This document shows, one piece after another, positions 1,241-29,102 of a stretch of 34,154 nucleotides of DNA. The notes under the pieces are model-generated. The model had not been told where the DNA came from, made no database searches, and saw only the letters and a program-made list of their open reading frames with translations. This DNA comes from Flavisolibacter sp. (lineage in GTDB: Bacteria > Bacteroidota > Bacteroidia > Chitinophagales > Chitinophagaceae), in contig JAQBNG010000013.1 of assembly GCA_028288675.1 (NCBI GenBank), forward strand, positions 1-34,154. The letters run 5' to 3'. Numbering within the stretch: position 1 is the stretch's first letter; each line of letters starts with the position of its first letter. Both the position numbers and the translations under genes were made by a program.

Positions 1241-1278
1241 CAGGATGCCACAGGATGATTGCCCCATCACTATTGTAT
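1241..1278 (+). promoter_or_regulatory. Candidate PUL promoter/operator A (tandem CAGGAT)
   Basis: Two CAGGATG copies start at 1241 and 1251, exactly 10 bp apart, preceded by CTTTT. A TATTGTAT box at 1271-1278 could serve as the -7 element. The GH105 ATG follows 64 bp after the first copy, in the context GCTATATG. The same architecture appears before five other transcription units in this window. Function as an activator site plus promoter is inferred from recurrence and position only. Confidence 0.5.
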
Positions 1279-1304
1279 AACATAGACCTTATTTTAACAG
1301 CTAT

Positions 1305-2426
1305 ATGAACAAACTACTGGTTATCCTCCTGGTGCTTATTACGACCCTTTCCTGCCGTGTACAAAGATTGCCTTCAAAAGAAAAAGTTCTGGAGCCGCTA
1401 ACATCGGCGAATGCCTACTTCATGAACAAATGGCCCGATCCGGGCAAGTCAATAATCACTAACCGGGAACGCCCAAGTAACATCTGGACAAGAGCGGTTT
1501 ACTACGAAGGCCTGATGGCCCTGCATAAAATTGATCCGCAAAAAAAATATTACGACTATGCTGTTGACTGGGGAACAAAACACAACTGGAGCTTGCGCAG
1601 TGGCAATACATCCCGTAATGCCGATGACCAATGCTGCGGGCAAACTTATATTGATCTCTATCTGATAGATAAAAAAGACGAACGTATCAAAGCTATTAAA
1701 GCCAGCATTGATAATATGGTAAAAACGGAGAAAAAGGACGACTGGAACTGGATAGATGCTTTACAAATGGCTATGCCTGTTTTTGTACGCCTGGGTGTTA
1801 TTTATAACGATACATCCTACTTTAGAAAGATGTATGATTTATACGCTTTTGCTAAATACAATCATGGTGGTAAAGGTTTATACAATCCTGCGGATAAACT
1901 TTGGTGGCGTGATAAGGATTTTGTTCCGCCATACAAAGAACCCAATGGCGAAGATTGCTACTGGAGTCGTGGTAATGGGTGGGTACTTGCAGCACTGGCA
2001 AGAACGTTGGAAATGTTGCCAAAAACAGACCCGCATTACAACGAATACCTGCAGGATTTTAAAGACATGTGTACCGCCTTAATTCCAATTCAGCGTACCG
2101 ATGGTTTCTGGAATGTAAGCTTGCACGACCCAACCAATTTTGGCGGCAAAGAAACATCAGGTACCGCTTTATTCGCCTACGGTTTTGCCTGGGGCATAAA
2201 CAATGGTATTTTGGATAAGAAAACCTACCAGCCTGTTATTGCTAAAGCCTGGAATGCGATGATAAAAGAAGCCGTGCATACTGATGGTAAATTAGGTTTT
2301 GTGCAAGGCACAGGTAAAGAGCCGAAAGACGGTCAGCCGGTTTCTTACGATAGTACACCTGACTTTGAAGATTATGGTTTGGGGTGTTTTTTATTAGCGG
2401 GAACAGAAATTTATAAGATGAAATAA
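1305..2426 (+). CDS. GH105 unsaturated rhamnogalacturonyl hydrolase (YteR-like), lipoprotein
   Basis: A 373-residue protein, the usual length for GH88/GH105. It should hydrolyse the unsaturated uronic acid at the non-reducing end of oligosaccharides made by a polysaccharide lyase, releasing for example rhamnose from rhamnogalacturonan disaccharide. A lipoprotein signal ends at TLSC (Cys17). The (alpha/alpha)6-barrel landmarks are present: ADDQ near 106-109, WNWIDALQM with Asp151 in the position of the YteR catalytic Asp143, WSRGNGW near 220-226, and KETSGTALFAYG. Unlike the SusD and FAS1 lipoproteins here, its Cys is followed by RVQRLP rather than KK plus acidic residues, which hints at periplasmic rather than surface location (inference). 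It is probably co-transcribed with the next gene, 41 bp away, from promoter A. GH88 is less likely given the active-site context. Confidence 0.92.
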   Translation: MNKLLVILLVLITTLSCRVQRLPSKEKVLEPLTSANAYFMNKWPDPGKSIITNRERPSNIWTRAVYYEGLMALHKIDPQKKYYDYAVDWGTKHNWSLRSGNTSRNADDQCCGQTYIDLYLIDKKDERIKAIKASIDNMVKTEKKDDWNWIDALQMAMPVFVRLGVIYNDTSYFRKMYDLYAFAKYNHGGKGLYNPADKLWWRDKDFVPPYKEPNGEDCYWSRGNGWVLAALARTLEMLPKTDPHYNEYLQDFKDMCTALIPIQRTDGFWNVSLHDPTNFGGKETSGTALFAYGFAWGINNGILDKKTYQPVIAKAWNAMIKEAVHTDGKLGFVQGTGKEPKDGQPVSYDSTPDFEDYGLGCFLLAGTEIYKMK

Positions 2427-2467
2427 TTTTTTTTAAGTGCTCAACGCGTCTTACCTTTTTCTATATC

Positions 2468-3901
2468 ATGAAAAAAGCTCGCTTTCTATTTTCTGTTTTC
2501 GCCTGTATGTGTATCACTACATACAGTCAAACAATTCAGTATAGCAGGCAAACCTTTCAAACTCCTTATGCCGATGCCATGCAGATGGTAGCCAATGTAG
2601 GAGGCTATCATCACCTGCTTTGCTTTAGTGCCAACAAGGTGCCTTCCATTTATATCTTTGATGCGCAACTGCAGTTACAAGGTAAAGAAGAGCTATCATT
2701 CAAACTTGAGGAAGCAAGCGATATACGAATCGTACCATTCAAAGAACATTATTATTTATATGTTCATTCCACCGGAACCACTGTGCATGAATTATGGAAA
2801 ATAAATGGTGATGGAACAACAGCTTTGTTATCGGTGCCATTTCAAAAACTGGTTGATTCTGTATTAAACAAAAACACCGCAACACTTCAATTGATTAATC
2901 AGCAGGAAGGCTTATTTGTAGCGGCCCATACCTATTTTGATGCTATGAAAAAGATGGGCAGCACCGTGGTAACATTGGATAAAGAATTAAATCCTTCACT
3001 GATCCGGAAAGTTTTTTATTCTTTCGATAAGGATTATGAAACCTTGCAACAATCTATGCTAGCCGGCAATAATTTGCTGCTATTAAAAACATCAAAAAAT
3101 GAGGGAAAAGGAAATTCCCTTGACGTTGTAAAAGTGGATTTAATTACAGGGGGATCCATCTCCAATTCATTTAACAGCGGGCTTTATTTGTACCTAAATC
3201 CCTCGTTTAAATTTAGCCCTAAAGATTCAGGCATTCTTGTGTATGCCACTTTGCGGGAGCCGGCTAATAGCAGCCGTACACAACGTAGCGTTTTTATTAA
3301 CCGGCTTAATTTTTCCTTGCAGGAGCAGGCGCCGCTTTCCTTATTAAGATCGCTGTTTAGGAATAACCTGGCTGCCAATTATTTATTGGTACAAGGACCT
3401 TCTTCCTGTTGGCTGAATATGGCGAACAACATACGGGTGTCAGTAAGGAATTCAATAGCGGCCCCCACCCGGGACTTTGTCACTGATGATGCCGGGGTTG
3501 TCAGGTTATCAAGAACTTCTCTACCCTCATTTATTACTCCCGAATACAACCAGCCTACGGCAATACGCTTTACTGTTTTGAATGAAAATTTCAAACCTGT
3601 TAAAGACAGTCTTATCGCCAACAACAAAAATGTATTTGATGTACAGCCGCGGCCTTATGCGCAATTCGTTATGAACAACAAAGCCTACCTTATTCTGATA
3701 CAAAATTTTTCTTCCAAACACCGTGGCTTGCTGATGGTGAATGCAACGGCTGACGGCCAGCTTACCACATCGGACTTACGGGTGTTTGACCGCTACAACT
3801 ACCTGTTGCCGCAATTGCAGGCGGTGGGCAACTATTTTATTTTGCCTTACACATATAAAAACGACATTGGATTGGTGAAGATTAAAATGGAAGATCAATG
3901 A
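2468..3901 (+). CDS. Secreted protein of unknown function next to GH105
   Basis: I do not recognise this 477-residue protein. It starts with a signal peptide (MKKARFLFSVFACMCITTYS) without a clear lipobox, probably cut near residue 21, so it is likely soluble in the periplasm or exported. The rest is rich in short hydrophobic strands separated by polar turns (for example HHLLCFSAN, HYYLYVHS, SGILVYAT, KAYLILIQNF, NYFILPYTY). This recurring pattern would suit a beta-propeller, but I cannot count blades reliably and see no catalytic motif. There is no C-terminal secretion (Por/T9SS) domain visible; it ends LVKIKMEDQ. It lies 41 bp after GH105 in the same direction and lacks its own copy of the CAGGAT promoter, so it likely forms a two-gene unit with GH105. 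A sensor, binding protein or unrecognised enzyme are all possible. Confidence 0.8.
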   Translation: MKKARFLFSVFACMCITTYSQTIQYSRQTFQTPYADAMQMVANVGGYHHLLCFSANKVPSIYIFDAQLQLQGKEELSFKLEEASDIRIVPFKEHYYLYVHSTGTTVHELWKINGDGTTALLSVPFQKLVDSVLNKNTATLQLINQQEGLFVAAHTYFDAMKKMGSTVVTLDKELNPSLIRKVFYSFDKDYETLQQSMLAGNNLLLLKTSKNEGKGNSLDVVKVDLITGGSISNSFNSGLYLYLNPSFKFSPKDSGILVYATLREPANSSRTQRSVFINRLNFSLQEQAPLSLLRSLFRNNLAANYLLVQGPSSCWLNMANNIRVSVRNSIAAPTRDFVTDDAGVVRLSRTSLPSFITPEYNQPTAIRFTVLNENFKPVKDSLIANNKNVFDVQPRPYAQFVMNNKAYLILIQNFSSKHRGLLMVNATADGQLTTSDLRVFDRYNYLLPQLQAVGNYFILPYTYKNDIGLVKIKMEDQ

Positions 3902-4306
3902 GTATTGCGATAGGGCCGGCTGTTTGTCTTTTGCGTGAGGGATAGAAGCGGCTATCCTTTTCCGGAGCATTGTGCGTAAAGCAAAAAAGATAGTAGCGCA
4001 TAGCCCGACGGCGCCTCGCCGGCACGCCCAAAATATTCATTTCTTGAAAACGATTTGTTGTAGGAAATGGGCTGGCAAGAATAATTTCCGCTACGGGTTT
4101 ATCAAGGGATAATGGGTGATGCTGTTGTTCTCAGCCTAAGCTTCAAGTGTGGTTTTAATTTAGTAAAGAAAAGAACCAATAGTAGCTCTGTATTGGAAAT
4201 ACAGGTTTTAACTGGTTGCGATTAATTCACTTTCGGTTAATGTCCCAACTCCACAGGATGGTTCTCAAATCCACTATATTTATTTTCCCTTTTTAAACAC
4301 GGTTGC
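3902..4306. other. Intergenic region before GH31
   Basis: 405 bp without a convincing gene. A short GC-rich hairpin (stem CGGCG/CGCCG, loop CCT) lies at 4009-4021; it lacks a following T-run, so at best it is a weak terminator for the preceding unit. The promoter-proximal end holds candidate promoter B (4254-4282). Nothing else is evident. Confidence 0.6.
4254..4282 (+). promoter_or_regulatory. Candidate PUL promoter B (single CAGGAT half-site)
   Basis: One CAGGATGGTT copy at 4254 is followed by a TATATTTA box at 4275-4282, close to the Bacteroidota -7 consensus TAnnTTTG. The ten bases before the copy do not match CAGGAT, so only one half-site is seen. The GH31 ATG lies 53 bp downstream, equal to 63 bp from where a first half would begin and so matching the 61-69 bp spacing of sites A, E and F. 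This is the weakest member of the set. Confidence 0.35.
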
Positions 4307-6739
4307 ATGCTTACACGAGGACTATTTTTCTTATCCATCTTTTTTATTACCACGACATCCATCGCCCAGCAAAACTTTAAAAAAACCGGCAATGAATTCT
4401 TATTTACTTCAGCCGGTAAAACACTGAAAATTGAATTTTGTTCGCCAACCATGTTCCGTGTAAGAAGTACGTCAACGGCCAGCTTTGAACCCAACGAACC
4501 CTGGATGGTAATTAAGTACAATTGGGCGCCAGTAGCAGTTACTGCAACCGAAGAAAAGGCTATGGTGCGTTTGAAAACAGCGCAACTAACTATTGTGATT
4601 CAAAAGCCTTCGCTGTCTATTGAAGTCATAAGTAAAGAAGGAAAAGTTCTTTCATCAGAAGCTGTCAAAGGTGGCGGAATTTCAACTACAGGAGAAGCTG
4701 TTAGCTGTGTAAAAAAATTAGGTGCCTATGAACATTTCTTTGGCTTTGGCGAACGCATGGATTTTTTAGATCGACGAGGCAAGGAACTCAAACTAAATGT
4801 GGGCCGGGGTACTGGTTTACCACATGCAGTAGGCGCTTATAATATTTTAGAAGCTAATTATTGCCCGGTTCCATTTTTCATGAGCACGGCTGGCTACGGC
4901 ATTTTTTTTCACAATGCTTATCCAACAAAATGGGACATGGGTAGCGAAAGGGGCGACGCCTATTCCTTTAGTGCAGAAGGCGGCGAGATGGATTATTATT
5001 TTATGCTCGGTCCAAAGTTTGGTTCCATCGTTTCGCAATACACATCGCTGACAGGCAGGGCGCCCCTGATGCCAAAAGCCGCTTATGGTTTACACATGGG
5101 CACGTACTCGGGCGGCACCTGGGGATACGAACACTTAACATCTGATGGATACGTAATAGCGTTAGCAAGAAGAATGCGTGAATTAGGAATTCCGGTTGAC
5201 CTGCTTTGGCTTGACAGCACCTGGAGAATTTTTGGTGAAGTAGGAGGAAAGGGAGCTACTTCTTTTGAGTGGCGGGAAACCTTTCAAAACCCAAAAGGCA
5301 TGTTTGACAGCTTGTATGCTATGAACTTTAAAATGGTTGGCGTACACCTGCGTCCGCGTTTCGACAATGGAAAAAAGATAAAACTTTTGGATACGGCACA
5401 ACGTTTAAAATTCACGTATCCTGAAGGTAATAACGCCGGTGAATTTGTCAATTTTTTTGACTCTGCTTCTGTAGACTTTTGGTGGAACCATGGTGTAAAA
5501 AGAGCCGCGGATTTAGGCGCACGGTTTTTAAAAACTGATGAAGGCAGCGCCTTTGGTGCGTTGGCAAATGAGAGCGATAAAATTGGCCCGCAGGGTAAAG
5601 AAATTTTAAAGTTGCACAACCTTTTTCCATTGGCTTATGCAAAAGCACCGTATGAAAAGTTTCAGCAATTTAATAAGCTGCGCGGATTGAATCAAACCCG
5701 TGAAGGCTATGCAGGCATACAACGTTATCCTTACATTTTTGCAGGCGACTGGCCTAGTGAGTGGCAATACTTTGCACCCGTTATTAAGGCAGGTTTGAAT
5801 ATCGGTTTATCAGGCGTTGGTAACTGGGCGCATTGCATGGGCGGCTTCGAACATGTAGCCGATCCGGAGCTTTACATACGCTGGGTACAGTTTGGTATGT
5901 TAAGCCCTGTTGCCTTGGTTTTTGGGATGGATCATCCGGGTTATAAAGAGCCCTGGAGTTATGGAAATGATGCGTTGCGAAACTTTAAAAAATATGATTC
6001 GCTGCGCTATAGCTTATTGCCTTATATCTACAGCCATGCTTACCAAATGAATCAAACAGGAGAGCCGTTAATGCGGGCTTTAGTTTTAGATCACCAGGAT
6101 GATGAAAATGTATATGAAATTGGTGATCAGTATTTGTTTGGTAAAGAGTTGATGGTTTGCCCGGTTACTACAAAGGGCGCACAAACAAGAACGGTGTATT
6201 TACCGGAAGGCGTGTGGTACGATTGGTGGACAGGAAAAAGATATACCGGTAAGCAATACATTCATGTAGTAACGCCATTGGATACGATACCCATTTTTGC
6301 AAAGGGCGGTGCTATCATTCCTACTCAACCATCAATGAATTATGTAAATGAAAAAAAAGTTGATGTGATAATGCTGGATATTTTTCCCGGCAATGGAAAG
6401 TTTAGTTTGTATGAAGATGATGGGGAAAGTTTAACCTACAAGCAAAATAATTTCCGTACAACCGATATAAGTCTGAAAGAATCAACAGGGCGGTATGAAA
6501 TAAACATAGATAAGCCCAGGGGAATTTATAAGCCGTCAACACATAGCTATCTTTTAAAACTCCATGCAACTACAAAACCAAAACAGGTAACAGAAAATGG
6601 CAAGTCGGTAAATGCATTACAAAGTAGCATTGGCGGTTCTGAAAAAAACGGTTGGTATTTTAATGAGAAGGAAAGTATGTTGTACATCAAAACTGCCTCG
6701 GATAACTTGATGAATTCCCAAGTTATTATCCAGGATTAA
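4307..6739 (+). CDS. GH31 family alpha-glycosidase (possible alpha-xylosidase/alpha-glucosidase)
   Basis: An 810-residue secreted enzyme with a signal peptide (MLTRGLFFLSIFFITTTSIA, cut near 20). The N-terminal beta-sandwich includes FFGFGERMDFLDRRG near 144-158, typical of GH31, followed by the TIM barrel (about 255-600) and C-terminal beta domains with the YEDDG motif. The retaining nucleophile is expected at Asp411 in FLKTDEG and the acid/base at Asp481 in FAGDWPSEW. GH31 enzymes cleave alpha-linked glucose, xylose or galactose and several other sugars; the specificity cannot be read here. The stretch usually reading GxPFWGxDIGGF is SGVGNWAHCMGGF (502-514), so it may belong to a less-studied subfamily. 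It has its own candidate promoter B and is followed by a 640-bp gap, so it is probably monocistronic. Confidence 0.9.
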   Translation: MLTRGLFFLSIFFITTTSIAQQNFKKTGNEFLFTSAGKTLKIEFCSPTMFRVRSTSTASFEPNEPWMVIKYNWAPVAVTATEEKAMVRLKTAQLTIVIQKPSLSIEVISKEGKVLSSEAVKGGGISTTGEAVSCVKKLGAYEHFFGFGERMDFLDRRGKELKLNVGRGTGLPHAVGAYNILEANYCPVPFFMSTAGYGIFFHNAYPTKWDMGSERGDAYSFSAEGGEMDYYFMLGPKFGSIVSQYTSLTGRAPLMPKAAYGLHMGTYSGGTWGYEHLTSDGYVIALARRMRELGIPVDLLWLDSTWRIFGEVGGKGATSFEWRETFQNPKGMFDSLYAMNFKMVGVHLRPRFDNGKKIKLLDTAQRLKFTYPEGNNAGEFVNFFDSASVDFWWNHGVKRAADLGARFLKTDEGSAFGALANESDKIGPQGKEILKLHNLFPLAYAKAPYEKFQQFNKLRGLNQTREGYAGIQRYPYIFAGDWPSEWQYFAPVIKAGLNIGLSGVGNWAHCMGGFEHVADPELYIRWVQFGMLSPVALVFGMDHPGYKEPWSYGNDALRNFKKYDSLRYSLLPYIYSHAYQMNQTGEPLMRALVLDHQDDENVYEIGDQYLFGKELMVCPVTTKGAQTRTVYLPEGVWYDWWTGKRYTGKQYIHVVTPLDTIPIFAKGGAIIPTQPSMNYVNEKKVDVIMLDIFPGNGKFSLYEDDGESLTYKQNNFRTTDISLKESTGRYEINIDKPRGIYKPSTHSYLLKLHATTKPKQVTENGKSVNALQSSIGGSEKNGWYFNEKESMLYIKTASDNLMNSQVIIQD

Positions 6740-7097
6740 ATGACTACCATAAGGCAGGTCTTTAAAGCTTCATTTTTCATTTTAGTGTAAATAAAAAAAA
6801 TTATGTCGATCAAGGCAAACTATCAGTAATGAAACTCGAAAAAAAATTACTATGCAACCTTGCGGGGGTAATGATGTTAGAATAAGGCTTATAGTCACCT
6901 CGAAATATTTCTATTAAAATAGATTCCAGATGCAAGCAACAACTCCGCTATATTTTTAGTCTTAGGTTCCGAAATCATTATGACCGGCTTTGTTCTTATA
7001 TTGGTCAATTTAAGCGGTTCATTTTATAATTTTTATAAAAGAATAGTTTAAGGAGCAGTACAATGCAATCGTTCCCGAAAATAGTATACTATATTTT

Positions 7098-7141
7098 CAG
7101 GATGCAGCAGGATAGTTGCCCTTACCAAATTGCTACTTTAG
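7098..7141 (+). promoter_or_regulatory. Candidate PUL promoter/operator C (tandem CAGGAT)
   Basis: CAGGATGCAG at 7098 and CAGGATAGTT at 7108 form a 10-bp-phased direct repeat preceded by TTTT. A TACTTTAG box at 7134-7141 begins 36 bp after the first copy, the same spacing as in sites D, E and F to within 1 bp. The SusC/D block starts 284 bp downstream of the first copy, implying a leader of roughly 240 nt if transcription starts just after the box. Site D resembles it closely, including AACGAG exactly 52 bp after the repeat start in both. Confidence 0.55.
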
Positions 7142-7210: not shown

Positions 7211-7366
7211 ATGAGAAAATCTTCACAACAATTAATTTACAGGGCTTTTTTATATGCTGGCCTGTATTGCTTTTTGCAAAAATCTTTCTTGTATAAAAAT
7301 AGTATCCTGCAAGCTGATTCAATGGTACCGTATCCTCTTATCCTTACAAATAGAGTAACCAAATAA
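7211..7366 (+). CDS. Possible 51-residue leader ORF in the FAS1-SusCD leader
   Basis: An ATG in the context GCTATATG, the same as the start context of GH105, SusC3 and the leader ORF at 25054, opens a 51-codon frame ending 15 bp before the first FAS1 gene. The product begins MRKSSQQLIYRAFLYAGLY, has a moderately hydrophobic first half and no recognisable domain. It could be a leader peptide, the remnant of an older gene start, or chance. A 77-codon frame starting at 7063 overlaps it but runs through promoter C and is less plausible. Confidence 0.2.
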   Translation: MRKSSQQLIYRAFLYAGLYCFLQKSFLYKNSILQADSMVPYPLILTNRVTK

Positions 7367-9589: not shown

Positions 9590-9609
9590 TGAACTATACA
9601 AACTGCAAT

Positions 9610-12903: not shown

Positions 12904-12919
12904 AGAAAACTTAAGAAAG

Positions 12920-14452: not shown

Positions 14453-14458
14453 TTTGAA

Positions 14459-16195: not shown

Positions 16196-16385
16196 CCGTA
16201 AAAAAGGGCTCTACTACACCTCGCTGCGTGTTAGAAACATTAGCGCAACGAAGATTACGTGTCTTGAAGCAAGAAAAAGAGGGGACTTGAATTTCGATAC
16301 TGGTAGATATTATGATTTTTTAAACCAGCAATTGAATAATAATAACAACTACTTATAAAAAGCATTGGCTCATAAATTAAAAAAA

Positions 16386-17870: not shown

Positions 17871-17897
17871 AGAAGAATTTTTTTTCTATATAGTAAC

Positions 17898-20800: not shown

Positions 20801-21158
20801 TAATAATCAAACCCTTGCGGTATTGAACCGGTGGAGAAGCAATGGCCAGGTAACAGCTATGCCTCGTGCATCTTTAGGCGATCCTACAGGAAACAGCAAT
20901 TTCTCTGACAGGTGGATTGAAGATGGTTCTTACTTCCGACTGAGGACGGCTTCGTTATCGTACAACCTTCCCATCAAAGCTGGTTTCCTTAGGTACTCAG
21001 TGCTTTATGTTACTGGTAATAACTTGTTCACTCTTACAAATTATCTTGGCTTTGATCCTGAGATGAGTGGTTCGTCAAGAGCATTGGGCCAGGGCTTTGA
21101 TGTAACATTTGAGCCGCAGTTTCGATCTGTGCTGGCCGGCCTTAGAATTGGTTTATAA
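17898..21158 (+). CDS. SusC-like TonB-dependent transporter with divergent N-terminus (SusC2)
   Basis: A 1086-residue SusC homologue. The signal peptide (to about NAGAQ, residue 30) is followed by an Asn/Lys/Gln/Ala-rich linker of some 35 residues, then a carboxypeptidase-D-like domain (EISGTITDAASRQPLRAVSV onward). The plug is clear: LQGKVAGLNAI, LFLRGISSLYTTNQPLLVVDG and VTVIKDGSSTYGTKGGNGVI. The barrel carries a DVNGDKIIDNND calcium-loop-like motif and ends LAGLRIGL. The segment where SusC1 and SusC3 have a Val-rich TonB box reads YEDTYSSFYGAAALPF here, so no canonical TonB box is visible. It follows Fas3 by 27 bp and precedes SusD2 by 24 bp, and presumably imports a glycan fragment different from that handled by SusC1. 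Confidence 0.93.
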   Translation: MQIPPLVKNNFKKGLIIPVLFLGLLNAGAQDNKARDNRANNNKQAPAQKLAADTAAYNQRVRSLANAVEISGTITDAASRQPLRAVSVFYHDYSAAITDSIGHFTIRVPNNQVTIVLQAEGYQAKELALKGRKTVTAALYEDTYSSFYGAAALPFGSLPNNRIPYAVTSVQSTGNWARPAETPDAFLQGKVAGLNAIRRSGTPNSGANLFLRGISSLYTTNQPLLVVDGVIYDIEDYGGSLISGNYSNPLAYIDIKDIDNVTVIKDGSSTYGTKGGNGVIVITTVRAKELATRIDAAVYGGVNFAPKNLPVLDAGQYRTYLSDLLQSGGATEAQVRAYPYMNDNLSSPDYYRYHNNTDWQKQVLHNSSFKDYYLKVTGGDNIARYSLSLGVLANSGVVKETDISRYNTRFNADLNLSKKLTATANLSFTFNDQSLKDQGLASKTNPLYVALIKSPLINVNEVSSAGAVSPVATDVDTFNVSNPVALISTMQGFNKSYRFAGSIGFNYAFSKSLNLSTTVAITVDKIRGNLFIPSKGVVNDTLDNGIIADSRLGAQTKRMLSVYNDTRLSYDQIFHQIHRISGRVGFRFLQSKTEQDIALGANSAIDQLRSVGNGVAALRRTSGDIGKYRWINTYLGADYSLLDKYFVSLNVALDGSSRFGKNVSSALSLNGNSFAVLPSIAGAWLVSSENFMASNKVFDLLKLRASFGLSGNDDIGNFNSRQYYISQNFLGTQGLVRANFGNEGLQWESVQKLNGGLDASMFNERVNISLDVYQNKTNKMLVNEALPTITGMTYVLTNSGSMKTTGAEASVMGRIINKSSLKWDLGFTIAHYKSTITALPNSSIITDYAGGAILSSVGNGPNMFYGLKTTGVYTSDAEASAGGLGVRQSNGAITLFRGGDIRFEDVNGDKIIDNNDRQIIGDPNPDFIGSITNRVQWKRFTFEALFTFSQGNDIYNYTRRQLESQSNYNNQTLAVLNRWRSNGQVTAMPRASLGDPTGNSNFSDRWIEDGSYFRLRTASLSYNLPIKAGFLRYSVLYVTGNNLFTLTNYLGFDPEMSGSSRALGQGFDVTFEPQFRSVLAGLRIGL

Positions 21159-21182
21159 ACTTTAAAAGTATAAGACACTAAT

Positions 21183-22994
21183 ATGAAACTGAATTTTTTT
21201 AAGTCGTGCTTTTTATTACTGGTGCTTGCCGGTTTAACAGCGCTGTCATCGTGTAAAAAGATATTAGACATACAGCCGGAAAATATGCTTACCGGTGAGC
21301 AAACCTACCGTAACGTATTTGATGCAGATGCGGCAGTATTAGGCGTGTACGGCAAGTTTATGCAACTGGCTAAACCCTATGTATTGCTGAACGAGTTGAG
21401 AGCTGACCTGATGTCGCCGTCAATAAATGCTGACCTGTACTTGCGGCAGTTAAGCGATCATACGGTTGCTGCCGATAACCCATACATAAATCCTACGCCA
21501 TTTTATGAAGTCATCCTGAATTGCAATGATGTGATGATGAACTTTGATAAGATGCTTACAGAGAAGAAACTGAAGGTTGATGAACATAACCAACGTTATG
21601 CTGATGTGGCCGCCATCCGCACCTGGGTTTACCTGCAAATAGGTATTCATTTCAGCAAAGACCCGCAGGGCACAATCGGTATTCCTTACCTCACCAATCC
21701 TTTAGCTTCAATTGCTGATGTAAAGAATGAATCCAACTACCAGTATCTTCCCTTCCGGCAGTTGTTAGCCGAATTAATTAAAACAATGGAAGCTTTACCT
21801 ACAAAGGAATTATATACTACTACCACAACATTGGTTACCACTGTTGATCAGTACCGGACGGAAAAGTTTTTCGTCAACAAAAAAGTTTTGTTGGGAGACC
21901 TGTACTTATGGAATGCGGCTTATGATCCTTCCTCGTATAATAAAGCAGCCAGGATGTACAGGGAAATACTTTCTTATTACGACGCCAGGGGTAATGAGAA
22001 TACGCAGAAAAATTATTACAAACTGATTGGAGCTCCGGATCCTGCAACCGGCAACCAGCTCGCCGTTCAATACATTCGTTTCCGCGAAAGTGATATCAAT
22101 GCTTTATACGAAAGCAATACAGAAGGATGGCGCTCTATGTTTTCGCGTGGTAAGTTTAGTTATGACACGCAGTTTGATTGGGAGTGGATTTGGGTCCTGC
22201 CTTTTAGCAGCAATTTTGCGCCTAAAAATCCCTTCATTGATTTGTTTTCCAACGTTGGCGGAAGCTACCTTGTTAAACCATCGCAACAAGCGATAAGTAA
22301 CTGGAACAGCCAGGTACAATTCAATAGTTTTCCTTTTGATGCCCGCGGCCGGTTTACTTATAAAACCATTAATGGGCAACCTGTTATTATGAAGTACCTG
22401 TATTACTTCCTTGATGGAAACACTTTTTTACCCTCCATCAATTCCAATGGCCGAAGCGGCGAATGGTGGTTGTCCAGGGCAGCTTCGGTATGGACGCATT
22501 ATGGAGAAGCGGCTAATCGTGATGGCCATCCCAAACTTGGTTTTGCAATTGTAAACCAGGGTTTAAGAACTACATATACGCCGCCCATCACTGCTACTAA
22601 TCCAAATAACAACAACGTAACTAACATTCAGCAAACCTTCCTTCCTCCTCCTTACGATTTTGATGCAAGGAGCGGCGATAACCCTGGATTCAGAGCGATA
22701 TGGAGAGACATGGCCGGACTTAGAGGAAGAGCTAATTTAAGGCCCAGGGATTTGATTGGCAGTGATAGTACAACGCAAGTTGAAAACATGCTGGTTGACG
22801 AAGCCGCATTAGAGCTAGCTTACGAAGGCCAGCGTTGGTCAGATCTGCTACGCATTGCAATCAGGAGAAAAGATCCTTCGTTTATTGCAAATAAGGTTTA
22901 TGATAAACTATTGCAGGATGGAAGCGGCAACGCGGCCTCAGCAAGAGTAAAGTTGATGAGTGGCGACTGGTATCTTCCATTTAGATGGCAATAA
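21183..22994 (+). CDS. SusD/RagB-like surface glycan-binding lipoprotein (SusD2)
   Basis: A 603-residue lipoprotein with lipobox SSC (Cys24) followed by KKILDIQPENMLTGEQTYRN, a typical SusD start. The C-terminal signature is LVDEAALELAYEGQRWSDLLRIAIRR, ending with WYLPFRWQ. It is about 90 residues longer than SusD1; the extra length lies in the middle (roughly 280-480), where surface loops usually form the glycan site, including FLPPPYDFDARSGDNPGF. It should pair with SusC2. It is the last gene of the block, with a strong intrinsic terminator starting 32 bp after the stop. Confidence 0.93.
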   Translation: MKLNFFKSCFLLLVLAGLTALSSCKKILDIQPENMLTGEQTYRNVFDADAAVLGVYGKFMQLAKPYVLLNELRADLMSPSINADLYLRQLSDHTVAADNPYINPTPFYEVILNCNDVMMNFDKMLTEKKLKVDEHNQRYADVAAIRTWVYLQIGIHFSKDPQGTIGIPYLTNPLASIADVKNESNYQYLPFRQLLAELIKTMEALPTKELYTTTTTLVTTVDQYRTEKFFVNKKVLLGDLYLWNAAYDPSSYNKAARMYREILSYYDARGNENTQKNYYKLIGAPDPATGNQLAVQYIRFRESDINALYESNTEGWRSMFSRGKFSYDTQFDWEWIWVLPFSSNFAPKNPFIDLFSNVGGSYLVKPSQQAISNWNSQVQFNSFPFDARGRFTYKTINGQPVIMKYLYYFLDGNTFLPSINSNGRSGEWWLSRAASVWTHYGEAANRDGHPKLGFAIVNQGLRTTYTPPITATNPNNNNVTNIQQTFLPPPYDFDARSGDNPGFRAIWRDMAGLRGRANLRPRDLIGSDSTTQVENMLVDEAALELAYEGQRWSDLLRIAIRRKDPSFIANKVYDKLLQDGSGNAASARVKLMSGDWYLPFRWQ

Positions 22995-23216: not shown

Positions 23217-24713
23217 TTAATCTGAAGTGAGATGTTTTCCCAGGTCTCGCATGGCAATCACCTTAAAATGGTGCTCTTTCATGTATTGCAGGAATTTGGT
23301 AAAAATCTCAACTGAAGTGGTGTAATCAGGGTGGGCGATGTCTGGAACACCATGTATGGTGAAAGCTAAAATCTGACGGGGTTGCAGGTTCTTCAAAGCA
23401 TTCCAGGTTCGCTCGTGAAGCTTTTCTGCGGAACCCATCGTGTAGCTGGGAATTACGAGGTGTCCGTCCTGTTTTGGATCATAATATTTACTGCCCCCCT
23501 GGCGGCCGTATCGGTAGCCCATTTCGTTTAAAACAACCTGCGACAGTGAATCGGCCCTGTTGCCGGGATAGGCAAAGGAAATGGGCTTCGGAATGCCATA
23601 CTCCTTGCACCTGGCTTCAATATAACCAATCTCTTTTTGCATCCCTTCGCGGTCAAGCTTCGTCATATTCTTGTGATGTCCTGTGTGGTTCCCGATTTCA
23701 AATCCCATTTGGTACAGTTCAGCAATCTGCGGCCATTTCATATAATACACAGAATCAGCCGGAGATTTCCAGGGCATTTCGCAAACGAAGAACGTGGCAT
23801 CAAAGCCATATTTTTTTAAAAGCGGAGCAACGATAGTGTAATGACTAATCTCCGCATCATCGAAGCCAAGGATTACAATTGGGTCTTTGGCTGGTACATT
23901 TTTGATTTTTGCAAACAGTCTGGTCATAGGCTTGGCTTCATTTCCCACTGTCTGCAACTTCTTCATGGCATCTGCATATCGCTTACCCAGTTCTCTCGCC
24001 GATGGCGTATCAAAATGTAGATGGTCGCCTTTATCTGCAAGCCCTTTGGCAGAAACCACCGCAGTATAAGGAACTTGTTGTGGTAATTGATTAATGACTG
24101 GATTGATGTAATCCATTTTATTGAAGTAGCCAATTTCTCCAGCTACAAAAGGCAGGTTAGGATTTCTCAGATCGGTGCGAAGGCGGCTGATCAGGATTTT
24201 CAATTTTCTCATATAAACAGCAGAAGGCAGGGAGTCGTTGTCTGATTCGCCTTGATGCCAGAGTATTCCTTTTAGAACACCTTTTTGCATAGCTAATTTT
24301 GCCCGTAAAATGGCATCATTGTAAGGATGGAAAACCTTTAAGTAAACTGCATCCGGCTCCCACACCTTTATCGGTGAGCCACCAAGGGCACACGGGATTA
24401 ATCCAATCTTGATGTTTTTATTATTGCCCAATATTTCTTTGGTAAAGCTGATGGCCGGACCAACTCCTGCTGATGCAGGCTTGTCAAAATGGACAGGGTC
24501 AGCAGCTGCTACCCATTGACCGAGTGAGTCGAGCATAAGTATTTGCGGATTCAGACTCTTGCTGTCTGCATCAAGTAGACCTCTTCCTGCCATATTGGAC
24601 TGCCCAATCAAAAGGTAAACATGAAAATTGCTGTCCACTATATCTTTTTGTGAATGGCTTTGCAAGGCTGAATACAACATGCAAATACTAAGAACGATTT
24701 TTATTTTCTTCAT
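23217..24713 (-). CDS. Secreted SGNH acetylesterase fused to NodB/CE4-type polysaccharide deacetylase
   Basis: 498 residues from the ATG at 24713, chosen because it gives a proper signal peptide (MKKIKIVLSICMLYSALQSHS); the in-frame TTG at 24734 would put seven unneeded residues in front. The N-terminal half is an SGNH/sialate-O-acetylesterase-like domain: GQSNMAGRG with nucleophile Ser39, GGSPIKVW (111-118), WHQGESD (152-158), and the Asp230-His233 DxxH pair. The C-terminal half (about 278-498) is a NodB fold: ILGFDD with metal and catalytic Asp285/Asp286, HTGHH with His343 and His347 (HxxxH metal motif), and FAYPGN (380-385). Both halves keep their key residues, so two deacetylation activities, one O- and perhaps one N- or O-linked, are predicted. 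Targets may be acetylated pectic or xylan-type sugars. It is transcribed toward the SusCD block and away from GH2. Confidence 0.88.
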   Translation of the reverse strand: MKKIKIVLSICMLYSALQSHSQKDIVDSNFHVYLLIGQSNMAGRGLLDADSKSLNPQILMLDSLGQWVAAADPVHFDKPASAGVGPAISFTKEILGNNKNIKIGLIPCALGGSPIKVWEPDAVYLKVFHPYNDAILRAKLAMQKGVLKGILWHQGESDNDSLPSAVYMRKLKILISRLRTDLRNPNLPFVAGEIGYFNKMDYINPVINQLPQQVPYTAVVSAKGLADKGDHLHFDTPSARELGKRYADAMKKLQTVGNEAKPMTRLFAKIKNVPAKDPIVILGFDDAEISHYTIVAPLLKKYGFDATFFVCEMPWKSPADSVYYMKWPQIAELYQMGFEIGNHTGHHKNMTKLDREGMQKEIGYIEARCKEYGIPKPISFAYPGNRADSLSQVVLNEMGYRYGRQGGSKYYDPKQDGHLVIPSYTMGSAEKLHERTWNALKNLQPRQILAFTIHGVPDIAHPDYTTSVEIFTKFLQYMKEHHFKVIAMRDLGKHLTSD

Positions 24714-24762
24714 TTTAGAAAATTCATTTTGCAACTTCTAATCGGAAACAATCATTTAGTTT

Positions 24763-24900
24763 TTACCCAAGACTATCCCTATCGTAGATAGAGCCACAAG
24801 TGTTTTTACCGGCATCGGTATAAACACCAGCCTTTTGTGCGAAGCTGTTAGTAGAAAACAGGAAGACCATAAAGAAAGAACAGAAGTAATTACGACTCAT
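24763..24900 (-). pseudogene. 45-codon secreted-protein ORF, probable truncated gene remnant
   Basis: The frame from the ATG at 24900 gives a convincing signal peptide, MSRNYFCSFFMVFLFSTNSF, cut around AFAQ-type Ala-Gln at 21-22. The mature part is only 23 residues (KAGVYTDAGKNTCGSIYDRD then SLG) before TAA. Candidate promoter F lies just upstream with its half-site 51 bp from the ATG, matching the spacing at other promoters here. The product is too short for any enzyme and I recognise no family; the likeliest reading is the 5' end of a secreted gene whose body was lost, leaving its promoter to drive the esterase 49 bp further on. A genuine small exported peptide cannot be excluded. Confidence 0.45.
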
Positions 24901-24917
24901 ATAACGAAGCAATTGCT

Positions 24918-24951
24918 CTAAGATAATAAGGCAAAAGAATTGGGCATCCTG
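24918..24951 (-). promoter_or_regulatory. Candidate PUL promoter F, minus strand (single CAGGAT)
   Basis: On the minus strand CAGGATGCCC reads from 24951 to 24942, and a TATCTTAG box occupies 24925-24918, starting 26 bp after the copy. That equals the second-copy-to-box distance at site C. The short ORF start at 24900 follows. The preceding ten bases do not match a first copy. It probably drives the truncated ORF and the esterase/deacetylase. Confidence 0.4.
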
Positions 24952-24987
24952 TACAATCATTTGTTGATTATGTCTCGAAATGAAGTT

Positions 24988-25032
24988 CAGGATGCAGCAG
25001 GACAGCCAACTATTTTGCAACCTGAACTTTAC
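24988..25032 (+). promoter_or_regulatory. Candidate PUL promoter/operator D (tandem CAGGAT/CAGGAC)
   Basis: CAGGATGCAG at 24988 and CAGGACAGCC at 24998 are phased by 10 bp and preceded by TT. An AACTTTAC box starts 37 bp after the first copy (25025-25032). With site C it shares the first 15 bases of the repeat, the CTTTA core, and AACGAG at +52. The GH2 start lies 264 bp from the first copy, again a long leader as at site C. It sits 36 bp from the oppositely oriented site F. Confidence 0.5.
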
Positions 25033-25053
25033 TACTCTAAACGAGCCAGCTAT

Positions 25054-25179
25054 ATGAAACCAACATTCTGCAAAATCAATTTTTCTGCAAACAGAAAGTA
25101 CTCATACTCAGAAGATCATTACTTGAACCTACTTACTATTAAGGTGCGGTTCTACAGTTATGCAGACAGTAACAACTAA
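25054..25179 (+). CDS. Possible 41-residue leader ORF or decayed gene start before GH2
   Basis: An ATG in the context GCTATATG lies 66 bp after the start of operator D, exactly where the real genes begin at sites A and E (64 and 69 bp). It opens 41 codons (MKPTFCKINFSANRKYSYSE onward) that end in TADSNN-like polar residues with no signal peptide or domain. GH2 begins 72 bp later. It may be a leader peptide or the scar of a gene once driven by promoter D; chance is possible. Confidence 0.2.
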   Translation: MKPTFCKINFSANRKYSYSEDHYLNLLTIKVRFYSYADSNN

Positions 25180-25251
25180 CATGGTGCCACTACAGCAATA
25201 ACAATCTTTAGAGGACAATAAAATAACTTGATAAACAATTAAGTGAGCCAA

Positions 25252-28227
25252 ATGATAAAATATTTGCTTTTAGTATTCTTCTGTGCTTTTCTAATAAATA
25301 GTGCATTGCTTGCACAAAGCACAGCACAGCGAATAAAATACAATTTCAACAGTGGCTGGAGAGTCTTTGTTGGTGATTTGAAAGAAGCCTCTGCACCGGG
25401 GTTTGATGATAAACAATGGAAAGCTGTCACCTTGCCTTATGCATGGAATGAAGACGATGCTTTTAAAAAAGACATTGTAAATCATTCTACCGGCATTGCA
25501 TGGTATCGCAAGCATTTTAAATTGCCCGCAACAACAAAAGCTCAGAAAGTTTTTTTAGAGTTTGAAGGCATCCGGCAGGCAGGTGAATTTTATTTTAATG
25601 GTGTGAACATTGGACTGCATGAAAATGGTGCGATGGCATTTGGCTTTGATGTAACAGATCTTGTGAAGTTTGGTAATGAAGAAAATGTTGTTGCGGCCAG
25701 GATTGATAACGACTGGAATTACAGGGAAAAAGCTACCAACACCAAGTACCAGTGGGAAGACAAAAACTTTAATGCTAACTATGGTGGCATTTCCAAAAAT
25801 GTCTATTTGCATATTACACCAAAAATTTATCAAACCCTGCCTTTGTATTCTAACCTAAAAACTACGGGTGTCTATATCTATGCTGATCATTATAACATCA
25901 AGGGAAAGTCTGCAACTATTCATGCGGAATCAGAGGTAAAGAATGAAACAAGCATAGTACAGCAAGTGAGCTATGAAGCATCAGTTATTGACTTGAAGGG
26001 CAAGCTTGTTCAAACCTTTACCAGTGCCGCAACAACCCTTGCACCCGGCGAAACAAAAATACTTAAAGCTTCATCGCATGTAAATGGCCTGAACTTCTGG
26101 AGCTGGGGTTATGGTTATTTGTACAATGTGCAAACAACATTAAAAGTGGCCGGTAAGCCTGTCGATGTGGTATCAACCAAAACCGGCTTTCGCAAAACTG
26201 AATTTAAACAGGGAATGATCTATCTCAATGATCGTGTAATAATGGTTCATGGCTATGCACAACGCACATCAAACGAGTGGCCGGCAATCGGGCAGTCGGT
26301 TCCTGCCTGGTTAAGCGATTACAGCAATGGGTTGATGGTTGAAAGCAACGGTAACCTGGTAAGATGGATGCACATCACGCCCTGGAAACAAGATGTGGAA
26401 AGCTGTGACCGTGTAGGGTTAATGCAAGCCATGCAGGCTGGCGATGCAGAGCATGATGTGGAAGGTGTTCGCTGGGAGCAAAGGAGATTCCTAATGCGAG
26501 ACGCCATTATTTATAACCGAAACAATCCAAGCATTATTTTTTACGAAAGTGGTAATGAATCAATCAGCGAGGCACACATGCGGGACATGAAAAGTATCCG
26601 CGATCAATTTGATCCGCATGGCGGTAGAGCAATTGGCAGTCGGGAAATGCTTGATAGTAAGACTGCCGAATACGGTGGCGAAATGCTTTACACCAATAAG
26701 AGTGCGCATATACCTATGTGGGCCATGGAGTATTCAAGAGATGAGGGGTCCAGAAAATATTGGGATGATCTTACACCACCTTATCACAAGGATGGTGATG
26801 GTCCCCTGCACAACGGTCAGCCAGCCAAAGACTATAACCGAAACATGGAATCGCATGCCATAGAAAATGTAAAAAGGTGGTTTGAATTCTGGAACGAAAG
26901 GCCCGGAACAGGTAAGCGTGTTAGTGCGGGTGGCGTTAATATTGTTTGGTCTGAAAGCAATACACATCATAGGGGTGAAGAAAACTACCGCCGTAGTGGG
27001 GAAGTGGATGCGTTGCGTATAAAAAAGCAGAATTTTTATGCAAACCAGGTTATGTGGGATGGATGGGTAAATCCTGAAAAACATCGCCTGCACATAGTCG
27101 GTCACTGGAATTACAATCCCGGTGTCAAAAAAGACATCTTTGTTATCTCTTCTTCTGATAAAGTAGAATTAAAGGTGAATGATAAATCTTTGGGTCAGGG
27201 CATAAAAAGTGACGGCTTTCTTTTTACATTCAAAGACGTTGAGTGGAAAGCTGGTAAAATTGGTGCTGTTGGTTACGACGAAACCGGTAAACAAGTTTGC
27301 AGTCAAACCATCAACACTGTAGGCCCTCCCATGGCCCTTCGGTTAACAACAATTAAGAGACCTACCGATTTTATTGCCGATGGACATGATCTGGTACTTG
27401 TTGAAGTGGAAGTGATCGACGCAAAAGGTAATCGTTGCCCAACTTCTTTAGACATGATTAATTATATCTTGAATGGCCCTGCAGAATGGAGAGGTGGTAT
27501 GGCTATGGGCCCAGATAATTATGTTCGTACCAAAACATTCCCGGTAGAAGGGGGGGTAAATCGTTTTTTAATTCGTTCTACCACGCAACCCGGTACAATT
27601 ACAATTAAAGCAAGTGCAGAAGGTTTAAAAGATGCTACATTAAGTTTAACTACTAAACCATTTATTACTGAAAACGGATTGTCTAAAGTTTTGCCTTCAA
27701 CTGGGTTGCCTTCTCTTTTAGGTAGAGGACCTACTCCGGCAACAGCTTCTTACATTATGACCCGAACACCTATTACTATCATTGATGCAATAGCCGGCGC
27801 CAATGCCGACACCACCTTAGCCAGTTACGATGACAATGAGTTATCGGATTGGGTAAATGACGGTAAGCTTTCAACTGCATGGATAGAATACACATTGGAA
27901 AGAGAAGCAACAGTGAGTGAGATTACGCTAAAGCTGAATAACTTTCGTTCAAGAGTTTATCCACTGCTCATAACTGTCGATGGCAAAGAAGCATTCAACG
28001 GCATGACGCAAACTACACTGGGCTATTATACCATTCGATGTAAACCGCAAAAAGGTAAGAAAGTAAGGATCCAATTAGTTGGTAGTGCTACCAACAACGG
28101 CGCGAATGGCGAAGTAGAAGTAAATGGCAAAAAACTGGATGATGGCGTAGTAAGAGATGACGCCAAAGCAAAGGGTACATTGAGTATTATTGAAGCGGAG
28201 ATTTATGAAAAACTCAGCGGGCAGTAA
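25252..28227 (+). CDS. GH2 family glycosidase (beta-galactosidase/beta-glucuronidase type), multidomain
   Basis: About 991 residues from the ATG at 25252, which gives a signal peptide (MIKYLLLVFFCAFLINSALL, then AQ); the in-frame GTG at 25243 is less likely. Domains in order: jelly-roll sugar-binding domain (about 25-190, with GIAWYRKHF), Ig-like domain (195-305), TIM barrel (about 310-600), beta-sandwich domains (620-810), and a C-terminal discoidin-like domain (about 845-990, LSDWVNDGKLSTAWIEYTL). The acid/base is expected at Glu436 in YESGNES and the nucleophile at Glu493 in WAMEYSRDEG. GH2 members remove beta-linked galactose, glucuronate, mannose or others, so the exact sugar is unknown; galactan side chains would fit a pectic substrate. 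It has its own candidate promoter D, about 220 bp upstream, and is followed by an 0.9-kb gap. Confidence 0.92.
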   Translation: MIKYLLLVFFCAFLINSALLAQSTAQRIKYNFNSGWRVFVGDLKEASAPGFDDKQWKAVTLPYAWNEDDAFKKDIVNHSTGIAWYRKHFKLPATTKAQKVFLEFEGIRQAGEFYFNGVNIGLHENGAMAFGFDVTDLVKFGNEENVVAARIDNDWNYREKATNTKYQWEDKNFNANYGGISKNVYLHITPKIYQTLPLYSNLKTTGVYIYADHYNIKGKSATIHAESEVKNETSIVQQVSYEASVIDLKGKLVQTFTSAATTLAPGETKILKASSHVNGLNFWSWGYGYLYNVQTTLKVAGKPVDVVSTKTGFRKTEFKQGMIYLNDRVIMVHGYAQRTSNEWPAIGQSVPAWLSDYSNGLMVESNGNLVRWMHITPWKQDVESCDRVGLMQAMQAGDAEHDVEGVRWEQRRFLMRDAIIYNRNNPSIIFYESGNESISEAHMRDMKSIRDQFDPHGGRAIGSREMLDSKTAEYGGEMLYTNKSAHIPMWAMEYSRDEGSRKYWDDLTPPYHKDGDGPLHNGQPAKDYNRNMESHAIENVKRWFEFWNERPGTGKRVSAGGVNIVWSESNTHHRGEENYRRSGEVDALRIKKQNFYANQVMWDGWVNPEKHRLHIVGHWNYNPGVKKDIFVISSSDKVELKVNDKSLGQGIKSDGFLFTFKDVEWKAGKIGAVGYDETGKQVCSQTINTVGPPMALRLTTIKRPTDFIADGHDLVLVEVEVIDAKGNRCPTSLDMINYILNGPAEWRGGMAMGPDNYVRTKTFPVEGGVNRFLIRSTTQPGTITIKASAEGLKDATLSLTTKPFITENGLSKVLPSTGLPSLLGRGPTPATASYIMTRTPITIIDAIAGANADTTLASYDDNELSDWVNDGKLSTAWIEYTLEREATVSEITLKLNNFRSRVYPLLITVDGKEAFNGMTQTTLGYYTIRCKPQKGKKVRIQLVGSATNNGANGEVEVNGKKLDDGVVRDDAKAKGTLSIIEAEIYEKLSGQ

Positions 28228-28437
28228 AAGTTGTAAAGTGGACTAATGGTGCCTTCATGGAACTCAAGTAGTAATCATATTCTTGTATTTCAATTGATAA
28301 GAGTGGCAGGTTTTTAGCACCTAATTTTAGATATTAAGTCAGGATAGCACAAGGCAATTGTTTTACCAGTAAAAATAATTTTAATGCTAACAATGAATTG
28401 CTGTTGTATGATGAAAATGAAATTTTTTCTGGTCAAC

Positions 28438-28455
28438 GCCTGAAGTTATTCAGGC
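28438..28455. repeat. Perfect 7-bp inverted repeat with 4-nt loop
   Basis: GCCTGAA, loop GTTA, TTCAGGC. It lies 211 bp after GH2. No T-run follows on either strand, so it is a poor intrinsic terminator. It could be an RNA hairpin in the 3' region of the GH2 transcript. Confidence 0.5.
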
Positions 28456-28762
28456 TTCAATATTCTAAACAGCAACCATTTTAAATTAAAAAAGACTTTG
28501 CGAAAAACCGGTCATCGTCTCTCATATGCAAACAACCGTTAGCACAAAAGTTGGTGAATAAAGTAACGCCTTCTACTTTATTGATCAATAAAGATTTTGT
28601 TTTTCTTCCTTGTATAATTAGGGCTCAGTTGTTATTCATCAAGGCCAATACGGACATATTAAAGTTATACAGCCAATTAAAAGTGCTCGTGGTGATGTAG
28701 GAAAGGGCCTTAACAACTTAGAAATACATAGATTCATGAAAAGGTCAATGAAAATCTGGGCT

Positions 28763-28789
28763 GGTTATCTAAAAAAATTTTAGATAACC
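28763..28789. repeat. Perfect 12-bp inverted repeat with 3-nt centre
   Basis: GGTTATCTAAAA (28763-28774), AAA, then TTTTAGATAACC (28778-28789). It is the longest perfect dyad I noticed in the window. No T-run follows the stem on the plus strand. It lies about 270 bp upstream of promoter E and could be a protein-binding palindrome, a bidirectional transcription end, or part of an untranslated RNA. Confidence 0.6.
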
Positions 28790-29057
28790 TATTTGCTGCG
28801 TAAAACCTGTTTGTCTCCTCTAAATCATAACGTGAATGAAATTGCAAGAGATGGCTTAAAAACAAAAGGAAGAGTGCATTTCTGATTGTTGCTTACACGT
28901 GAGCTGTAGAAACAACGCCCACGGCGACAGCCACGGTTTACGACTCCACAAACCGATGACAATTTGAAATGCACCAAAAGAAAACTTTCCCGTCGTAAAA
29001 GCAGCAACTTTTGAAGCAGTATCTATTCTTACTTCTGCTAACGTTATTAAAATCTTT

Positions 29058-29102
29058 CAGGACAGTTCAGGATAACTGTTAAAAAAAGTTAAAATAGTTT
29101 AG
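29058..29102 (+). promoter_or_regulatory. Candidate PUL promoter/operator E (tandem CAGGAC/CAGGAT)
   Basis: CAGGACAGTT at 29058 and CAGGATAACT at 29068 are phased by 10 bp and preceded by CTTT. A TAGTTTAG box starts 37 bp after the first copy (29095-29102). The SusC3 ATG lies 69 bp after the first copy, in the context GCTATATG as at GH105. This is among the clearest members of the promoter set. Confidence 0.55.

Follow-up and report, generated by a model that had tools for sequence, protein, structure and literature searches.

Which regulator reads the short tandem element that recurs among the polysaccharide utilisation locus (PUL) genes of a Flavisolibacter sp., and what do the genes behind it have in common? 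The stretch analysed here (the window) is 34,154 nucleotides of contig C130 from a host genome of 4.74 Mb in 254 contigs (label G000), and the element is a pair of CAGGAY hexamers (Y is C or T) on one strand, with their starts exactly 10 bp apart. An initial annotation of this DNA had proposed that the element precedes every PUL transcription unit and that it is read by a hybrid two-component system (HTCS), an AraC-type protein or a dedicated sigma factor of, for example, the extracytoplasmic function (ECF) group. It can be seen below that one shared promoter element and one regulon across the PUL units are well supported, and that the best candidate for the regulator is absent from that list: a protein with a GntR-type winged helix and a LacI-type sensor domain. 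We put at roughly 0.68 the probability that the tandem element is read by this GntR/LacI chimera and that the chimera runs a rhamnose/rhamnogalacturonan regulon, probably as an activator. We strongly infer that the chimera is the regulator, and only infer that the sign of regulation is activation.

The tandem element and the genes behind it

CAGGAY occurs 60 times on the two strands of the window, and 12 of the 60 copies lie outside open reading frames (ORFs) of at least 100 amino acids. Four pairs are set at an offset of 10 bp (1241, 7098, 24988 and 29058, all on the forward strand, as first described), all four outside such ORFs, and the remaining offsets between 6 and 40 bp yield no pair in the window. 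This is far beyond chance: order-1 simulations gave a mean of 0.013 pairs, and none of 300 reached four. The whole host genome has seven CAGGAY pairs, against none for the control pattern, and five of them are intergenic, namely the four in the window and one on contig C220. The C220 pair precedes a GH28 (glycoside hydrolase family 28) gene, with a divergent alpha/beta-hydrolase gene beside it and genes for a PL11-type lyase and a GDSL esterase further on; the other two pairs look coding, one in ilvC (L005) and one in a TonB-receptor-like frame for which no closed ORF is listed (L007). A scan for the 16-mer that allowed three mismatches gave 60 matches against 1 in the control, with five known sites among them. 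We also tried a single-copy pattern, CAGGAYN{19,22}TANNTT, which gave 125 matches in the host genome against 40 in the control; it was too loose to be specific genome-wide and was rejected for listing the regulon.

In 394 genomes of the family, the pattern CAGGAYN4CAGGAYN{18,22}TANNTT was found 471 times, in 140 genomes, against 10 control matches (control totals, here and for the variant described below, were counted by hand from the match tables). As a sample that was not hand-picked we took the first match in each of 30 genomes. The initial annotation would have been undermined by a motif equally common inside genes; 25 of these 30 loci are intergenic and 5 lie inside ORFs, and in all 25 the next ORF is on the same strand, 42-340 bp away. 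Two intergenic loci with only a short ORF downstream (L182 and L195) were left out of the domain scan. The 23 downstream proteins that were scanned comprise GH78 (four), GH106 (one), GH28 (three), SusC (four), fasciclin (three) and SASA (one) proteins, and the remaining seven are PSCyt1/PSCyt2-DUF2231 (three), amidohydrolase, YHS and FG-GAP proteins (one each) and one without a match. We conclude that glycans bearing L-rhamnose, and not pectin as a whole, are the common denominator of the targets. The three PSCyt1/PSCyt2-DUF2231 targets (L177, L180 and L183) come from three genomes of one other genus (g28); they were unexpected, and these genes may belong to rhamnoside breakdown.

A GntR/LacI chimera as the candidate regulator

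The same layout with one letter changed, CATGAY for CAGGAY, forms the promoter of the host's rhaT gene (CATGATAGTCCATGAT with TACTTTTA). This gene encodes the L-rhamnose transporter (NCBIfam RhaT equivalog), and both it and a rhamnulose-1-phosphate aldolase gene are confirmed by NCBIfam. Divergent from rhaT lies the chimera gene (contig C162, 33026-34057, reverse strand, 343 amino acids). Its product, which we name the RhaR-like GntR chimera, is by its predicted domains a GntR-type winged helix joined to a LacI-type sugar-sensing (periplasmic-binding-like) domain: PF00392 scored above cutoff in all four chimera proteins examined and PF13377 in two of the four. In the AlphaFold model of the Terrimonas ortholog (pLDDT 89.5) helices fall within residues 20-69 and wing strands at 73-83, and Foldseek matched the model to LacI, to PurR and other LacI-type repressors and to the AraR effector domain (3tb6), with the AraR DNA-binding domain (4egy) also among the structure matches.

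Gene order ties the chimera to the sites. CATGAY pairs occur in 114 of the 394 genomes, with 13 control matches. When 136 distinct listed CATGAY sites were compared with 123 chimera places (one for each of 123 of the 183 chimera genomes), 61 sites, in 61 genomes, sat divergently 43-508 bp from the chimera start and 7 more lay within 15 kb. In 31 of 80 named chimera loci a strict site is found no more than 600 bp from the chimera gene, and these include loci from Segetibacter, Niastella, Terrimonas, Mucilaginibacter and a Cyclobacteriaceae metagenome-assembled genome. The two site types also change places: in G356 and G146 the site adjoining the chimera is CAGGAY and precedes another gene, in G405 and G117 rhaT itself carries CAGGAY, and G361 has a mixed CATGAC/CAGGAT pair. 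Since G000, G003, G006 and G014 each have a single chimera copy and both site types, one protein probably reads both (CAKGAY, where K is G or T).

Co-occurrence was assessed with the chimera called at E<=1e-60 unless stated, which gave 183 chimera genomes. Among the 140 CAGGAY genomes 121 hold the chimera, compared with 62 of the 254 that lack such a site (p=3e-34), and it is present in 108 of the 114 CATGAY genomes (p=1e-38), although the kinship of the genomes, together with the tendency of larger genomes to hold more of everything, inflates these p values, so that they are only indicative and the reading is the weaker for it. Genomes with both kinds of site hold the chimera in 82 of 82 cases, and those with three or more CAGGAY sites in 65 of 65; 450 of the 471 CAGGAY promoters lie in chimera genomes, and at least one strict site of either kind is found in 147 of the 183. 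At the stricter E<=1e-100, the chimera is still found in 108 of the 140 CAGGAY genomes and in 62 of the 65 with three or more sites. A rhaT-like CATGAY promoter at 92045-92087 of contig C2 in G032, a 98% complete genome, has no chimera match at E<=1e-60, which is either an assembly gap or the work of another regulator.

A potential explanation for these associations that would not involve the chimera is that an unlinked activator, inherited together with rhamnose use, reads the sites, and that the chimera is a mere neighbour. Co-occurrence cannot separate co-inherited genes, and in G006 and G014 the chimera is not beside rhaT. Set against this are the 61 genomes in which the chimera lies divergently beside a site and the two in which it lies beside other targets, and we regard an unlinked activator as improbable.

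The initial annotation had listed AraC-type proteins among possible readers, and the Bacteroides RhaR is indeed an AraC-family activator of rhamnose genes (PMC3870299, PMC3878776). A candidate of this family (the type encoded at L137:16413-17318) is encoded beside the chimera in G041 and G043, and 53 of the 62 genomes that hold it at E<=1e-110 have sites (p=1e-18). However, neither G000 nor G014 has a match to it at E<=1e-15, though both have sites, and of the 65 genomes in which at least three sites were counted 24 lack it at E<=1e-110 and 15 at E<=1e-60, one ortholog group having been tested. All 62 AraC genomes also hold the chimera, so that the AraC set is nested in the chimera set, and in genomes that lack the AraC gene the association of chimera and sites persists (p=1e-20). 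The AraC-type rhamnose motifs predicted in three other groups moreover have a 21-bp repeat (PMC3870299). We therefore rejected this AraC protein as sole regulator and consider it very improbable that a regulator of the L137 type reads the sites in place of the chimera. The L137-type orthologs were, at E<=1e-110, found only in chimera genomes, and the protein may be a second rhamnose-linked regulator. The AraC protein of G043 (L078) was also set aside, as the matches listed outside G043 are 28-38% identical and give no ortholog pattern, and what had seemed an HTCS gene next to the G041 chimera proved to encode a BNR_4 protein. The proposal of an HTCS reader fared no better, since the predicted Bacteroides motifs have a period of about 21 bp (PMC3878776) and the window has no CAGGAY pair at 20-22 bp, only at 10 bp.

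Position of the element relative to the -7 box

If the chimera acts as an activator, the element should stand at a set distance from the core promoter. The initial annotation had reported, at four sites, TAnnTTAG-like boxes beginning 26-27 bp after the second copy (or the single one), counted from its first base. Three of these stand: TACTTTAG (7134-7141, 26 bp from the start of the second copy and 20 bp past its end), TATCTTAG (24925-24918 on the reverse strand, 26 bp) and TAGTTTAG (29095-29102, 27 bp, or 21 bp past the copy) are the inferred -7 boxes of their promoters. The site at 24988 has only TGAACTTT (25023-25030) at 25 bp, an unconvincing box. Two candidates at 27 bp had gone unlisted, TAACATAG at 1278-1285 (21 bp past the second copy), a variant that recurs identically at L039, L067 and L080, and TATTTT at 4281-4286.

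An unconditional test was made with TTCAGGAYN4CAGGAY, for which no box is required. In 98 relatives it gave 59 matches against 2 in the control, and the test covered 54 distinct sites in the fetched loci. TAnnTT lies 20-22 bp past the second copy at 18 of the 24 distinct intergenic sites in chimera genomes, and the broader TAnnnT, which includes the TAACATAG of the GH105 promoters, does so at 21 of the 24. At every other single offset there is at most one TAnnTT among these 24 sites, and the box is found at 20-22 bp in none of the 5 intergenic sites in non-chimera genomes and in none of the 25 sites inside ORFs, although one of the latter rows (L067) is a GH105 promoter within an over-extended frame. 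Among fetched intergenic sites the spacer is 20-22 bp in 66 of 66 CAGGAY and 61 of 62 CATGAY cases, with 21 bp the commonest value, these sites having been selected by a pattern that already requires TAnnTT at 18-22 bp.

Flavobacterium psychrophilum has TAnnTTTG at -12 to -5 (PMC9723704), and with a 21-bp spacer the pair would span -49 to -34 and be centred at -41.5. That is the position of a class II activator, and the pair would there overlap the upstream core box. In B. fragilis the -33 box is TTTG (PMC7366714), and here GGAY of the second copy occupies its place. The absence of a -33 box is weak evidence by itself, and the narrow spacing is the stronger argument. The suggestions made at the outset, that the second copy falls where the -33 box should be and that a protein would dock on direct repeats, are both supported.

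Two other readings bear on this geometry. One takes CAGGAT as the upstream box of a dedicated sigma factor, in favour of which one could cite a hexamer in the -33 place at a narrow spacing. The downstream box is, however, the house-keeping TAnnTT, where an ECF sigma factor would be expected to use a -10 element of its own distinct from that of sigma-A, and the element is a 10-bp direct repeat and not one box; we consider the sigma factor proposal extremely improbable. The other is that the same chimera binds the same sites as a repressor, and that rhamnose or a derivative must release it before RNA polymerase can engage the -33 region. AraR of B. subtilis has the same architecture (PMC4494728) and is named a repressor in solved-structure entries, the GntR repressor NanR binds direct GGTATA repeats (PMC8012715), and the site overlaps the -33 region, which a repressor could cover as well as an activator. 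The narrow -7 spacing, on the other hand, is needed by activators and usually not by repressors, and the second copy sits where the -33 box would be. We think repression unlikely, but it deserves more weight than the other alternatives.

Transcription units of the window

The window opens with the end of an FGGY kinase gene (23-1222, forward strand), probably a rhamnulokinase at the end of a rha operon, assigned from Pfam and from a gene order like that at L065 of G003. To judge from gene order, the window's contig joins the one (G000:C162, L142) that carries the rhaT promoter and divergent chimera gene of this operon. Next comes the pair CAGGAT-N4-CAGGAT at 1241-1256, upstream of a GH105/GH88-family gene (1305-2426, forward strand; PF07470, Glyco_hydro_88) that is the first of its unit, and similar promoters stand ahead of GH105-like genes in G003 (L039), G006 (L067) and G041 (L080). 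One protein without a Pfam match is encoded between this gene and the GH31 gene (4307-6739, forward strand), which has a single CAGGAT upstream at 4254-4259 (forward strand), as described, with no recognisable first copy.

The pair at 7098-7113 (forward strand) precedes a probable operon (7382-22994, forward strand) encoding fasciclin, SusC, SusD, fasciclin, fasciclin, SusC and SusD-like proteins, identified by Pfam. The first of these genes begins 284 bp past the first half-site, the internal gaps of the block hold no tandem site, and comparable promoters precede comparable blocks in G003 (L065), G006 (L068) and G012 (L171). On the reverse strand, what had been called a single copy at 24951 is actually a pair with a variant first copy, AATGAT-N4-CAGGAT (24946-24961), upstream of a gene for a SASA acetylesterase with a polysaccharide deacetylase domain (23217-24734, reverse strand). 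The pair at 24988-25003 (forward strand) stands upstream of the GH2 gene (25243-28227, forward strand), and that at 29058-29073 (forward strand) upstream of the third SusC/SusD pair, which consists of a SusC-type receptor gene (29127-32243, forward strand) and a SusD frame running from 32261 to the contig end on the same strand. The distance of 61-69 bp from the first or implied first copy to an ATG was reproduced, at 64 bp (1241), 66 bp (24988), 69 bp (29058) and 63 bp (from an implied copy at 4244); the ATG past 24988 opens a 41-amino-acid ORF, whereas the GH2 frame begins at 25243.

Neither the gene at 2468 nor that at 16365 has its own site; both are probably co-transcribed, and only on that condition does the claim hold that the element precedes every unit. 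A seventh, degenerate site had been missed, CAGGAT-N4-CAAGGC at 28340-28355 (forward strand) with TAATTTTA at 28376-28383, recognised by alignment with promoters of G003, G006 and G043. Its leader resembles those promoters, that of G006 preceding a GH88-family gene, and after the site the window has some 700 bp without a listed gene (28340-29040). It looks as if a transcription unit had been lost downstream.

Further features were noted around these promoters. The two strands of the window together hold four copies of GCTATATG, at 1300, 7206, 25049 and 29122 (forward strand), each 59-108 bp past a first tandem copy. In 488 kb of same-genus loci with 32 tandems, 12 of the 16 copies of GCTATATG begin 40-130 bp past a tandem. 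It often includes the start codon, while several rhaT leaders have GCTATA without one. Short ORFs starting from TATATG follow three promoters and end before the main genes (7211-7366, forward strand, 51 amino acids; 24900-24763, reverse strand, 45; 25054-25179, forward strand, 41), and in fasciclin-led PULs of six genomes, where the main gene lies 243-340 bp past the first half-site, the short ORFs are dissimilar in sequence. Of 147 tandem promoters, 6 have a LacI-like element of the GGGAACGATTGCGTAAATA type in the 50 bp upstream (L037, L046, L065, L068, L079 and L322), and five of them drive SusC or fasciclin-like PUL genes (L322 falling outside this tally). Within 100 bp upstream the count is likewise only 6 of 147, and a LacI-type site was rejected as a general partner. 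A partial, reversed copy lies at 7065-7079 of the window, ahead of the site at 7098, and in G020 (L087) such an element stands between a LacI gene and a SusC gene.

Discussion

We propose that two copies of the chimera would dock head to tail on one face of the DNA, one turn apart, on CAKGAY half-sites at about -49 to -34, with the second copy standing in for the -33 box next to sigma-A. When cytoplasmic rhamnose or a product of it is present, the bound chimera would probably bring sigma-A RNA polymerase to a -7 box of the plain TAnnTT type, so that a single signal would switch on L-rhamnose uptake and breakdown (CATGAY) jointly with the dispersed rhamnoside/rhamnogalacturonan PUL genes (CAGGAY). 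Docking and polymerase recruitment are proposed because of the site geometry; the LacI-type domain suggests a cytosolic sugar as ligand, which, from the genes nearby, would be L-rhamnose or a phosphorylated product of it. By this reading the regulon would also take in rhaT through its CATGAY site, the GH28 cluster on C220 and the degenerate site at 28340.

A number of observations weigh against this reading. GntR regulators usually bind palindromes. Neither strict site is found in 36 of the 183 chimera genomes, 25 genomes have a site and no chimera at E<=1e-60, and in G008, which holds two copies of the chimera, no strict site occurs. With respect to linkage, for 68 of the 136 listed CATGAY sites no listed chimera gene lies within 15 kb, and in 49 of the 80 named loci the chimera has no strict site at 600 bp or less. 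TAnnTT is in place at only three of the five intact host pairs, 1241 having TAACAT and 24988 its weak box, and two intergenic pairs from chimera genomes, L087 and L096, have no such box at all. The single copy at 4254 is supported mainly by its intergenic position, and 3 of the 23 scanned loci target a PSCyt1/PSCyt2-DUF2231 protein with no plain link to rhamnose.

In Bacteroidota, PULs are usually described as being controlled locally, with glycan pieces sensed by HTCS, SusR-like or ECF/anti-sigma pairs. HTCS and SusR are among the PUL regulators of Bacteroides (PMC3878776). Here, a single regulator of the cytosolic sugar-sensing type appears to use one promoter architecture to run the rhamnose transporter, the catabolic operon and several PULs at scattered loci. 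The element provides a rule for predicting rhamnoside/rhamnogalacturonan genes, including unannotated ones, in Chitinophagaceae and some relatives, its two half-site types make a specific binding prediction, and the system is a clean test case for activators on sigma-A promoters with a weak -33 box. A more speculative extension, possible but held only tentatively, is that the chimera is a class II activator on one-turn direct repeats for which CATGAY and CAGGAY form a two-letter code, separating mainly rhamnose uptake and breakdown from the costly PULs to give an ordered or graded response, with the GCTATATG leader as a second, coupled layer of control. Class II activation on one-turn direct repeats is not described for the GntR/LacI architecture in the literature examined, and in a search of open-access papers, with supplementary regulon tables outside its scope, we recognised no earlier description of the site or of the regulator.

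Comparison with known systems

In the pho box bound by PhoB, two direct repeats with a spacing of about one turn replace the -35 box, in class II activation. PhoB differs in being an OmpR-family response regulator with an 11-bp period and is unrelated to the chimera. AraR of Bacillus subtilis, whose operators are palindromic, is a named repressor; the sites proposed here would instead be direct repeats, CAKGAY-N4-CAKGAY, one turn apart at an activator position, and the neighbours and inferred targets are rhamnose-type and not arabinose genes. What the two share is sugar regulation and the architecture, an N-terminal GntR winged helix with a C-terminal LacI/GalR-type sensor (PMC4494728). NanR of E. 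coli is likewise a GntR protein on direct hexamer repeats, (GGTATA)3 (PMC8012715), but it is a repressor bound downstream of the polymerase site and belongs to the FadR subfamily (PMC4494728).

The rhamnose regulons of DeoR-family RhaR proteins have imperfect direct repeats with a 10-11 bp periodicity, although the protein family is a different one, and the Bacteroidetes rhamnose regulator of the same study is AraC-type (PMC3870299). In Bacteroides thetaiotaomicron, direct-repeat sites of HTCS and RhaR regulators govern PULs, including those for rhamnogalacturonan (PMC3878776); these regulators have AraC-type DNA-binding domains and sites about 21 bp apart, against 10 bp here, and HTCS proteins sense in the periplasm, whereas the chimera has a LacI-type sensor and no Pfam sign of a membrane sensor. 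Finally, the MocR-type GntR activators GabR, TauR and PdxR combine a winged helix with direct repeats, activation and divergent gene order (PMC5320631), as we propose for the chimera. The MocR proteins carry an aminotransferase-like domain and use repeats two or three DNA turns apart (PMC5320631), whereas the chimera has a periplasmic-binding/LacI fold in its place and would read repeats one turn apart.

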